From an uncultured Pseudomonadales bacterium (lineage in GTDB: Bacteria; Pseudomonadota; Gammaproteobacteria; Pseudomonadales; Azotimanducaceae), in NCBI GenBank assembly GCA_951813515.1, contig OX638346.1, forward strand, positions 186,001 to 250,000: a stretch of 64,000 nt of DNA, given 5' to 3'. The translations under genes and the position numbers were made by a program. Positions 33,533-42,980 of this stretch are shown in pieces. Position 1 is the stretch's first letter; each line of letters starts with the position of its first letter. The notes beneath the pieces were generated by a model, which worked only from the letters and a program-made list of their open reading frames with translations, searched no databases and was not told the origin of the DNA.

Positions 33533-33655
33533 GACGACCGCGGCAGGATCAACGGGATGACGGGCGCTCGGTTGGGGCGAACCATCAGGCTCGGGCAAGT
33601 CCGCGCAAATGCGGCGAGCGGCGCTATACTCGAAACCGGATGCAAGGAGAACCCC

Positions 33656-34006
33656 ATGGAACGCATCATCCTTTACCACAACCCTGGCTGAGGCCAGTCA
33701 CGCGGCGCGCTGGGAATCCTGCGCGAGCGAGACGTCGAGTTCGATGTCATCAACTATCTCAAGGAGCCCCTGAGCGAGGAAACGCTACGCGAGTTCATCG
33801 GCATGATCGACGATCCGCCGGCGGACCTCGTGCGCAAGGACAAGAACTTCAAGGACCTCGGGCTGAACGCCGGCGACTACACCACCGAAGATGGCGTCGT
33901 CGCCCTGCTCCTGGAGCACCCGAGGTTGATGCAGCGGCCGGTCGTGGTCCGCGGCGACCGCGCCGTCATCGCGCGGCCGTCTGACAAGGTGGAAGCGCTG
34001 CTCTAG
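33656..34006 (+). CDS. arsC: Candidate selenocysteine-containing arsenate reductase (in-frame TGA at codon 12)
   Basis: A glutaredoxin-type ArsC of 116 residues if TGA 33689–33691 is read as selenocysteine. The frame starts MERIILYHNPG, then TGA, then GQSRGALGILRERDVEF. ArsC enzymes have HNPxCxxSR with the catalytic cysteine exactly where TGA falls. Downstream sequence is uninterrupted and family-like to the stop (YLKEPLSEETLREFI, then RPVVVRGDRAVIARP). A hairpin starts 9 nt after the TGA (see the SECIS entry). It has an AGGAGA ribosome-binding site and a TATACT −10-like box at 33625–33630. Selenoprotein ArsC has been reported from marine metagenomes. The alternative is a nonsense mutation (TGC to TGA). 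Confidence 0.8.
33701..33729 (+). promoter_or_regulatory. Putative bacterial SECIS hairpin of arsC
   Basis: Directly downstream of the in-frame TGA the transcript can fold into one hairpin. Base stem 33701–33703/33727–33729, small internal loop, main stem CGCGC (33706–33710) with GCGCG (33721–33725), a U·U mismatch, two G–C pairs, then the GAAU loop at 33714–33717. The loop G is 23 nt after the TGA, inside the known 16–37 nt bacterial range, and it is the first loop base as the consensus model requires. GC-rich sequence makes chance stems fairly easy. Confidence 0.6.
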
Positions 34007-36293: not shown

Positions 36294-39542
<3,249 letters not shown>

Positions 39543-39710: not shown

Positions 39711-42700
39711 CTAGCCGCCGAAGACGTATCTCAAGGACAGGCCGTACACCTGGGGCTCCGTAACAAAATAGTTGCGGAAGAACCCCGAAGTATCCGATGT
39801 CAGGTACTTGCCTGTCACGTTCTCATCGTCCAACAGGTTCCGCACCCAGGCCCTGGCGGACCAGGCACCGCCGCTCTCATACACCAGCATGAGGTTGTGC
39901 TGGCTCCAGCTATCGATCTCGTCGCCGACCGCATTGAACTCGCGGGCGTACGACTTGCTCTGCCAGTAATAGTCCCAGCGTAGCGTCAGCAATCCGGTGC
40001 CCACTTCCCACGTATGTGCCAGACCGAGTCTCGCCGTGTTGCGAGGTGCGTTGGGGAGCTCATTGCCGTCGAGATTGACCGGGATGCCTTCCAGCGTCTC
40101 AACGCCGACAGCCTCCAGGAAGTTCCGAGAGAAATACGCCGGAATTGCCACGCCTGCAGCATTGGGTGGGTAGAAAATGTTCACACCGAGATTGCCGCCG
40201 ATGAGCGCCTGGGTGGCCTGTGGCAGCGATGCAAAGAATGCCGACAGAAGCTGTGGCGTAATCTGCGACTCACGCGCAACAAAGTTGATCCCGGTGAGAG
40301 AGCCCGGATCGACGTTGTTGAGCAGGATATAGTCGGGGTTGCCACCTGTTCGATTGACCGGATCGATGGATAGCGTGTCCTTGGCTTTGGCGGACAGGAG
40401 GCTGTACGCAAAATCGACTGCTAACCCCGACATTCCTGCCGGCCGCCATTGTCCCTCGAGTTCCAGACCGCTGATGGCCGCATCAACGTTCTCGTTGATC
40501 GAACTGTTGTTCCTGATGCGGGTGATCTGAAGGCCCGAATAGTCATAGGTGAACGCCGAGGTGTAAAGGGTAAGCGCTCCGTCGAGCAACGTGCTCTTGA
40601 CCCCAACTTCGAAGGCGCTGACCTGTTCCGGTTCAAAGGTAAACGCCGATACGTCCTGAAATGCTGGGGGAATGGCTGGATTGAACCCTCCGGGCTTGTA
40701 CCCTCGGCTGAAAAAGCCATACAACAAGGTGTTGTCGCCCAACTGGTAGTCGAGGCCGATTCGGCCACTGACCTTCCGCCAACTCGCCTGACTCGGACTG
40801 CGAGTGACGAATCGCGTCTCACCGAATGCGGGTGCGGGGCCTAGCGCATTGGCAATCGCGGCGAACGCCTGCGCGCCCGCAGCCAGGCCCGCGTCCTGGG
40901 CGATGACCGCCGGATTCTGGGACAGCAACGCACCGACGGTACCCTGGAAGATCGGCGGCAGCGGCAGGCCCGCAATGGCCTGGGGAACGAACTGAATCGG
41001 CAGCAGACCCGCCGCAATCTGCTGCCCGATGACCTGGGCAGCGCCTATTGCCACCAGGGAACCGATAGCCGCCGGCGCACTGGCCTCGTAGACACCGCCG
41101 GCGTTGTGGAACTCCAGAATCCTGAGCGATGTTTCGCTCAAGGAAGCGGCCGGGCTGGCCGCCATCGCAGCCATTTCGCCGAACAGGCCGCTGCGCAACC
41201 AGATGGGATTCGGCCCGAACAGACCGCCTACCGCTGCAGTGACGTTGGCCGAGTTGAACAGCACGCTCGAATCGCTGACTACCTTGTTGTCCTCGTTGAA
41301 ACGCAGTCCAGCGGTCAACTTGAGACGCTCCGTCGCATCAAAGTAGACCTCTCCGAATATCGCCTCCCCGTCCTGCGGCGGACCACCGTCCTCCGGATTA
41401 TTCGTGTTGTAGAAGAATCCGGGATAGAGCGGCGGCGCACCGAGGGCAGCGGAACCGTAGCGGCTCACGAGATCCAGCGTGTTGGCGAGCACGTAGTAGC
41501 CGCCGTAGTTGGTGTCCTCCTGGCGACTGGCGCCCAGAAGGAAATTGAAACGTCCGTCAAAGTCGGAGCGCGCCTTTGCCTCCAACGTGTAGTACACGCC
41601 ATTCGCGTCGGCCTGGTCGAAAGCGAACTGAAGATTCTGCAGCGTCGGCAGAATACAGCCACCGAACGTGCCCGACGTTCCTTCCGCCACGTTGCAGGTC
41701 TCCGAGAGCCACTCAGCGCCCGCACCGCCCGCCGGCTCGGATGTCGGCCAGATCCCCGCAGGGTTCTGCGGCGTCGGGTTCAAGCGTGGCCCCACATCCA
41801 TGAGGTAGTCCTGGCGCGACAGGTGTTCGTAGTCGCGCACCGCGCCAGTGACACTCACGCTCAGCTTTTCGAAGTCATAGTTGAAACCGAACGCCCAGAG
41901 GTCTTCCTTCTGGTGGAAAGTCGGTTCCAAATCCGTATGCATCTTCCGGAAGCTCTCGATCGCCGGTCGCGGAAAGTCGTATAGCGCGGGATTGGCACCG
42001 TCCGCGCCCGGCGGCAGCGCGCCGGCCGCACCACCAAAGATCCCTGCCGTCGTTGCACCAAGGTGCGGCGTCTCCCATCCGAACTCGTTCGGCAGGCACC
42101 CGGTGGTCGGCAGCGGATTGCGCTTGCAGACCTGGTTCGTGATACGGACTCGATCATCATCCTCGCGGAACACGCTGTACTGCACCCACGCATCAGCCCG
42201 GTCCGATATGTCCCAGGCGAGCGTTGTCCGCGCAGCCCAAATGTCTCGGCCATCGATGTCGTCGTCTATCCCGGGAATGGTCTGACCCGCCGCGTTTCTC
42301 TGGCCATATGCCAGATTCTCGATGAAGCCGTCGCGCTCCAGGTTGAATCCGGCGATGCGCAGGGCAATGTTGGAGGTCAACGGCAGGTTGAGCGCCCCTT
42401 TCAGGCGGTTGTGGCTGAAGCTGCCGGCTTCGACGTCGGCGAAACCTCCGACGCTTTCGAACGAGGGCATTTTCGTCACAACGTTCAGAGCACCGCCGGT
42501 GGCATTGCGGCCGAATAACGTGCCCTGCGGACCGCGCAGAATCTCGACGCGTTCGATGTCGAAGAACTCTATCGCGTTCAGATTGGTGGCAACCGCTATC
42601 TCGTTCACGTGCGACGAGACTCCGGCCTCGCCGCTACGAGAGATGACCAGCTGTCCGACGCCGCGAATGCTGAAGTTTGAACCACCGAAGTTTGTCGCGC

Positions 42701-42980
42701 TGAAGGACACGTTCGGCGTGTTCAACTGCAAATCCGAGGGATTCACGATCTGACGGTCCGCGATCATGTCGTCGGTCAACGCGGTCACCGCGATTGGGAC
42801 ATCCTGGATGCTCTCCGCCACGCGCTGCGCCGTAACGATCAACTCCTCGACGGTCGGAACCTGCGTCTCGACCCCCGCCTCGGCGGCTTCCTCCTCCGCT
42901 GCCTGTGCCGAGCCGCTAACCGCAACCCCCCCAACAACCAAAGCAGCGCCGCACAGCCCAATCATGTTTTGACGTGTCAT
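39711..42980 (-). CDS. TonB-dependent receptor, tandem copy 2
   Basis: A 1089-residue paralogue of the downstream receptor, with the same layout: signal peptide, TonB-box-like VEELIVTAQRV, plug (SIQDVPIAVTALTDDM, RVEILRGPQGTLFGRNATGG), barrel, and terminal QVYGLSLRYVF followed by GG. The Ala/Gly-rich insert (about residues 630–720) is almost identical to that of copy 1. The 168-bp gap to copy 1 suggests a separate or attenuated transcript. Tandem duplication with diverged loops suggests two related ligands. Confidence 0.92.
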   Translation of the reverse strand: MTRQNMIGLCGAALVVGGVAVSGSAQAAEEEAAEAGVETQVPTVEELIVTAQRVAESIQDVPIAVTALTDDMIADRQIVNPSDLQLNTPNVSFSATNFGGSNFSIRGVGQLVISRSGEAGVSSHVNEIAVATNLNAIEFFDIERVEILRGPQGTLFGRNATGGALNVVTKMPSFESVGGFADVEAGSFSHNRLKGALNLPLTSNIALRIAGFNLERDGFIENLAYGQRNAAGQTIPGIDDDIDGRDIWAARTTLAWDISDRADAWVQYSVFREDDDRVRITNQVCKRNPLPTTGCLPNEFGWETPHLGATTAGIFGGAAGALPPGADGANPALYDFPRPAIESFRKMHTDLEPTFHQKEDLWAFGFNYDFEKLSVSVTGAVRDYEHLSRQDYLMDVGPRLNPTPQNPAGIWPTSEPAGGAGAEWLSETCNVAEGTSGTFGGCILPTLQNLQFAFDQADANGVYYTLEAKARSDFDGRFNFLLGASRQEDTNYGGYYVLANTLDLVSRYGSAALGAPPLYPGFFYNTNNPEDGGPPQDGEAIFGEVYFDATERLKLTAGLRFNEDNKVVSDSSVLFNSANVTAAVGGLFGPNPIWLRSGLFGEMAAMAASPAASLSETSLRILEFHNAGGVYEASAPAAIGSLVAIGAAQVIGQQIAAGLLPIQFVPQAIAGLPLPPIFQGTVGALLSQNPAVIAQDAGLAAGAQAFAAIANALGPAPAFGETRFVTRSPSQASWRKVSGRIGLDYQLGDNTLLYGFFSRGYKPGGFNPAIPPAFQDVSAFTFEPEQVSAFEVGVKSTLLDGALTLYTSAFTYDYSGLQITRIRNNSSINENVDAAISGLELEGQWRPAGMSGLAVDFAYSLLSAKAKDTLSIDPVNRTGGNPDYILLNNVDPGSLTGINFVARESQITPQLLSAFFASLPQATQALIGGNLGVNIFYPPNAAGVAIPAYFSRNFLEAVGVETLEGIPVNLDGNELPNAPRNTARLGLAHTWEVGTGLLTLRWDYYWQSKSYAREFNAVGDEIDSWSQHNLMLVYESGGAWSARAWVRNLLDDENVTGKYLTSDTSGFFRNYFVTEPQVYGLSLRYVFGG

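Follow-up and report, generated by a model that had tools for sequence, protein, structure and literature searches.

The window analyzed here (the whole stretch of 64,000 nucleotides, corresponding to bases 186001-250000 of a 4.31 Mb genome that is assembled in a single contig and 97.8% complete) carries on its plus strand a frame of 116 codons at 33656-34006 that contains an in-frame TGA as codon 12 (33689-33691) and ends in a TAG stop. Its ATG is preceded by a Shine-Dalgarno-like AAGGAG (33644-33649, plus strand) ending six bases 5' of it, and a loosely defined motif of this kind lies upstream of 20 of the 29 TGA-bearing relatives compared below (this gene included). Translation gives MERIILYHNPG, then the TGA, then GQSRGALGILRERDVEF...KVEALL, with H8 N9 P10 G11 before the TGA and G13 Q14 S15 R16 behind it, which is the HNPG-TGA-GQSR arrangement at codons 8-16 of a 116-residue product that the initial annotation had described. 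As claimed there, the TGA aligns with Cys12, the catalytic cysteine of glutaredoxin-type ArsC, within the motif HNPxUxxSR; it is predicted to encode selenocysteine (Sec), and Ser15, three positions past the UGA, makes this a protein of the UxxS type. The ordinary list of open reading frames also starts this gene at 33803, just as had been foreseen, leaving a shortened ORF of 67 aa (33803-34006, plus strand). Members of Sec-ArsC are lost by gene callers in this way: the best 33 matches to the C-terminal tail in a collection of 5.8 billion proteins are all shortened to 67, 73 or 98 aa. Elsewhere in the window, two long minus-strand frames in tandem (36294-39542 and 39711-42980; 1082 and 1089 aa) look alike by eye, and the first of them is a TonB-dependent receptor according to Pfam.

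Both flanks of the TGA had been called intact and family-like, and profile matches spanning the readthrough product agree: PF03960 (Pfam ArsC) is matched over residues 7-114 with 50.1 bits against a cut-off of 24 (3.6e-13), and TIGR00014, with Cys put at the UGA, over residues 5-116 with 98.9 bits (2.4e-28). No other ArsC-type match was found in the genome. The product also aligns to the solved arsenate reductases 2mu0 (2.7e-17) and 1i9d (2e-15), and 18 aligned proteins show no variation at H8, N9, P10, U/C12, S15, R16, R60, R94 and R107. Among these, C12, R60, R94 and R107 correspond to the arsenate site of R773 ArsC, the plasmid-encoded enzyme of structures 1i9d and 1jzw. ArsC of the R773 type (1i9d/1jzw, 2mu0) thus shares with our protein the sequence family, the HNPxCxxSR motif and arginines aligned with Arg60, Arg94 and Arg107, and differs by Cys12 in place of UGA12 and, for 1i9d, by a length of 141 instead of 116 residues. 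On this model, the selenolate at position 12 would attack arsenate held by the three arginines, and glutaredoxin and glutathione would resolve the arsenate adduct.

Arsenate reduction is put forward as the likely cellular role. A rather less probable alternative, itself compatible with Sec decoding, is an ArsC-fold selenoprotein that serves general thiol/selenol redox or a Spx/YfgD-like function. It draws on a TIGR00014 score slightly below the curated cut-off of 106.05 bits, which 8 of the 10 relatives scanned miss as well, Cys and UGA forms alike (the two that pass are the UGA form L100 with 113.8 bits and the Cys form L021 with 150), and on the genomic setting, given that the arsenite pump ACR3 was not found in the genome and no ars genes were recognized among the eight neighboring proteins scanned. 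The invariance of the three arginines argues against this alternative, as does the Spx-type model TIGR01617, which scores 50.4 bits or about half of what TIGR00014 reaches.

The initial annotation had tied its proposal to the presence of Sec machinery in the genome, and all four components that it named are there. The genes selA (3877324-3878655, 545.4 bits), selB (3878679-3880511, 408.7 bits, model positions 1-578 of 581) and selC, encoding tRNA-Sec (3880550-3880639, 71.7 bits, above the cut-off, anticodon tca according to ARAGORN), adjoin in a row, and selD lies at 3949049-3949951 (275.6 bits). The selD match is part of a roughly 730-aa frame (L170:6933-9122, minus strand) with a long N-terminal extension that by eye resembles a flavin/pyridine-nucleotide oxidoreductase. 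The genome also holds a SelW-like gene (PF10262, L202, at 1973355-1973561) whose frame contains a single TGA, and thereby a second UGA gene, this one from a classical selenoprotein family. Among single-TGA frames in 34 kb around selA-selB-selC and selD, no further selenoprotein was recognized by eye. A crude scan of the window for other UGA candidates returned eight, none convincing by eye, and proves little because arsC itself escaped that scan.

Homologs with TGA or with Cys at the site, which the initial annotation had proposed to look for, both occur among the relatives of this gene. The family comprises 206 searched genomes, of which 176 have an ArsC match, and at least 29 of these 176 carry exactly one TGA in ArsC among the matches listed, including all 9 genomes of the genus. 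Among the matches listed for samples of the order (349 of 390 genomes matched) and of the class (244 of 369), no TGA lay outside the family. A scan of named genomes yielded 12 loci with TGA at six of them (L107-L110, L112 and L113) and Cys at the other six; its same-genus and same-family records are Gammaproteobacteria metagenome-assembled genomes (MAGs). Neighboring genes are shared among the same-genus loci and one Cys locus, L111, with most loci spanning about 1.5 kb on each side. After removal of duplicates, the comparison set consisted of 29 distinct TGA genes, the one at 33656-34006 included, and 34 Cys genes.

A selA match is present in 28 of the 29 TGA genomes (weak in G921, none in the 81% complete G829), and likewise in 176 of the 206 family genomes (166 above the cut-off), whether or not their ArsC carries the TGA. 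Because selA is near-universal in the family, its occurrence beside the TGA is no independent test; the family is a selenocysteine-using lineage in which ArsC varies. G829, without detected selA, has two TGA copies (L119 and L120), while in G934 (L082, L128) and G936 (L091, L127) TGA and Cys copies of ArsC occur together. One TGA-ArsC with the AGUU hairpin described below, L113:4001-4348, comes from a MAG recorded under Candidatus Poriferisocius (Actinomycetota), which may reflect gene transfer across phyla or mis-binning of the contig. Finally, P0050, a database protein of 118 aa, has Cys at the site within flanks that resemble the Sec form (HNPGCGQSRGALDILRERGVEFDVI) and is a candidate Sec-to-Cys reversion.

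Selection for protein coding extends to both sides of the TGA. Single-base codon differences were counted over all pairs of the 29 TGA genes, which share ancestry and are not independent, and gave 1163 synonymous versus 362 non-synonymous differences in codons 2-11 (5' of the TGA), 1745 versus 558 in codons 13-26, 1740 versus 877 in codons 32-48 and 8145 versus 2358 in codons 50-110; four of the 29 genes (L100, L102, L121 and L122) seem to begin at codon 3. The ratio in codons 2-11 is about that of codons 50-110, so the stretch 5' of the TGA is subject to selection of the kind seen in the rest of the frame.

Further downstream in the TGA genes, a hairpin of the sequence GACGUCG-AGUU-CGAUGUC (33731-33748, plus strand; stem of 7 bp, -8.1 kcal/mol) is conserved and probably represents the SECIS element. 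Its loop (33738-33741) begins 46 nt past the UGA, and both this spacing and the loop sequence AGUU are found in 29 of 29 TGA genes. RNAalifold recovered the hairpin from the 29 TGA genes without being given a structure, and found no structure in 19 of the 34 Cys genes (this set excludes 15 others, namely three actinobacterial genes and those of at most 50% identity). Correspondingly, 99.5% of 189 hairpin cells are paired in the TGA genes versus 71.4% of 133 in the Cys genes. The 29 TGA genes and 20 Cys genes were also screened for perfect hairpins that have G within the first two loop bases. This retrieved the far hairpin in 29/29 TGA and 2/20 Cys genes at E <= -5, and in 27/29 and 1/20, respectively, at E <= -7.5; some weaker far hairpin is possible in about half of the Cys genes. 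The covariation signal of the hairpin (its score is reached by 77 of 500 shuffles) is thin because the sequence hardly varies. The genome was also searched for the ArsC hairpin sequence with up to 2 mismatches, giving 273 matches (control 17), and among the 30 of these that were examined a TGA exactly 46 nt upstream occurred only at the ArsC gene itself.

A further mark of this element is the lack of any synonymous change across codons 27-31 (GTC GAG TTC GAT GTC, 33734-33748, plus strand), which are positions 15-19 past the TGA. Synonymous identity averages 0.53 over 106 codons (beyond codon +28 from the 22 TGA genes of equal length) and reaches 1.0 in five neighboring codons only, which are precisely these. 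At codons 27-31, all 1974 of 1974 same-amino-acid pairs of TGA genes share the codon versus 334 of 487 pairs from 20 Cys relatives (the 14 Cys genes at 53% identity or less were dropped; one of them, the distant L022, likewise has GAG TTC GAT there). Over all pairs of TGA genes, these codons show 0 synonymous and 56 non-synonymous single-base differences, and the latter stem from just two genes, L113 with ATC and L124 with GCC. Both departures alter the amino acid and keep the RNA pairing, with G-U replaced by A-U in L113 and A-U by G-C in L124. An RNA-level constraint thus evidently acts on codons 27-31. On a protein tree built from 62 rows, with the 42-residue stub L135 dropped, the distribution of the TGA requires 9 changes between TGA and Cys labels, at least 3 of them forced, but the data are compatible with a single TGA clade (p-AU 0.318). 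That the hairpin is identical in all 29 TGA genes favors one origin of the element.

The SelW-like genes of the same lineage provide a comparison within the genome. PF10262 has 114 matches in 111 of the 206 family genomes, 110 of them with one TGA, and we examined the loops of 47 of these 110. A motif AGU[U/C]U lies about 21 nt past the UGA in 46 of the 47 and GGUCU in the remaining one. Folded alone, 43 of the 47 place GU[U/C] at 22 nt in an apical loop of three bases and one places GGUCU at 21 nt, while L190, L206 and L207 adopt other folds. The 42 distinct rows of the SelW hairpin have 98.0% of 294 cells paired, and none of 500 shuffles reaches its covariation score, a result that related rows can mimic without structure. 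The SelW hairpin therefore resembles that of ArsC in its loop top A-G-U-[U/C], in belonging to a UGA gene and in presumably being read by the same SelB, but its loop lies about 21-22 nt past the UGA instead of 46 and it serves a protein family of the CxxU type. Taken together, the synonymous lock, the association with TGA and the SelW-like AGU loop make it quite probable that the displaced hairpin is the SECIS. One SelB of a genome should read one loop kind; SelB would bind the AGUU loop, and tRNA-Sec (UCA) would deliver Sec.

A possible stem-loop between the UGA and the far hairpin (33701-33723, plus strand), formed by CGCGG (33701-33705) and CUGCG (33719-33723), could account for the unusual distance. 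If folded out, it would remove 23 nt and leave an effective UGA-hairpin distance of 23 nt, close to the SelW spacing of 21-22 nt. This stem is weaker than the far hairpin: 94.1% of 135 cells are paired in the TGA genes versus 57.9% of 95 in 19 Cys genes, and the amino acids R-G...L-R might alone account for its letters. We lean towards the view that, in the family and in an actinobacterial relative, one SelB reads an AGU-topped hairpin at two placements, about 21 nt past the UGA in SelW and 46 nt past it in ArsC, where the folded-out stem-loop in between would restore the working distance. Folding energies of single sequences were set aside as evidence (z between -0.09 and -1.29), being uninformative because the gene is GC-rich.

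The principal competing explanation for the hairpin is that a conventional SECIS at 16-37 nt past the UGA does the work and that the far element has another task such as mRNA pausing or aid to the SECIS. The published model indeed places the loop at 16-37 nt (PMC13188914), and the ArsC gene does have, at 22 nt, an imperfect near hairpin (GCGC-U-GG-GAAU-CC-U-GCGC) whose loop begins with G. Perfect near hairpins (16-37 nt) of E <= -7.5 occur in 7/29 TGA versus 1/20 Cys genes. However, when uninterrupted stems are counted, a near hairpin with G at either of the first two loop bases is missing from 12 of the 29 TGA genes, among them the one at 33656-34006. Synonymous sites do vary across the near region, and it is the far hairpin alone that is free of synonymous change and has a loop resembling that of SelW. 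As a conserved SECIS the near hairpin was rejected, having neither a fixed loop nor synonymous conservation, and we regard the conventional arrangement as improbable.

The remaining explanations dispense with Sec altogether. Reading of the UGA by a near-cognate tRNA (Trp or Cys), which would yield small amounts of a Cys or Trp enzyme, is very hard to reconcile with a genome that holds complete Sec machinery and a SelW-like UGA gene, with Cys codons that replace the UGA at the reactive residue in relatives and with a hairpin that accompanies the UGA. A pseudogene, nonsense mutation or sequencing error might be suspected from a stop so close to the start of a conserved gene and from nearest database proteins that are shortened. 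The TGA is, however, common to 29 distinct genes from separate genomes and so is no isolated mutation or sequencing error, the possibility that the initial annotation had itself raised against its proposal; outside the hairpin, moreover, synonymous changes outnumber non-synonymous ones by a factor of two to three on either side of the TGA, and five codons are under RNA-level constraint, which leaves a broken gene with a negligible probability. The frame 33656-34006 is thus very probably a selenoprotein gene and a well-supported addition to a published family. For the whole reading, an ArsC gene whose UGA12 would be decoded as Sec via a predicted SECIS with an AGUU loop 46 nt downstream, we estimate a probability of about 0.8; this joint confidence is tempered by the near-universal selA, the missing bulged U and the deviating folds of three SelW genes.

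If the far hairpin is the SECIS, the spacing rule for finding bacterial selenoproteins is too narrow and genes have possibly been missed; searches confined to 16-37 nt would miss genes such as this one. SECIS spacing would then be a three-dimensional path and not a nucleotide count. These genomes offer a clean natural experiment on this question: a single SelB presumably serves two selenoprotein genes whose similar loops lie at unequal distances, and in close relatives with Cys the element is either weak or missing.

Published SECIS rules fit the ArsC hairpin in several respects but not in its placement. The bacterial consensus has G within the first two bases of the loop, commonly with G or U after it, an upper stem of 4-16 bp with an energy of <= -7.5 kcal/mol, and a distance of 16-37 nt between UGA and apical loop "for most", with some elements that do not fit (PMC13188914). 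The loop G, the stem of 7 bp and the energy of -8.1 kcal/mol all agree with this description, but the spacing of 46 nt falls outside of it. The upper stem-loop of E. coli lies 11 nt from the UGA, with U17, G23 and U24 being important (PMC8659212), and the bulged U17 is absent from the ArsC and SelW hairpins described here. The text available from PMC4513850 gave no information on SECIS spacing, and no mention of a far SECIS in ArsC was found in the literature text within reach (figures and most subscription papers lie beyond it).

Several lines of previous work have linked Sec to ArsC. The ArsC of Bacillus subtilis is a different type of enzyme. A Sec form of it has been made (PMC4150793), and an ArsC-like selenoprotein in Desulfotalea as well as a distant ArsC homolog in Desulfuromonas have been described (PMC1794560). 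"Arsenate reductase-like" NF041106 is also ArsC-related and contains Sec, but has a UxxC motif and its own line in the review table, and "Arsenate reductase 2" of the GOS data is likewise UxxC and listed separately (PMC2398784). Sec-ArsC of the UxxS type (COG1393/TIGR00014) was reported from the Sargasso Sea in 2005 with 14 sequences (PMC1088965) and again from GOS in 2008 as "ArsC 1" with 77 sequences (PMC2398784), and reviews on selenoproteins bear on it as well (PMC9312934, PMC13188914). These proteins are the same as ours in belonging to the ArsC family, in having Sec for the catalytic Cys and in their widespread Cys homologs (PMC1088965, PMC2398784). The new families of 2005 are described in the text as having stem-loops with features of bacterial SECIS elements (PMC1088965); the conserved hairpin found here lies 46 nt away from the UGA. 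Sec-ArsC of the UxxS type has been published since 2005, and it is the displaced signal that appears to be new.
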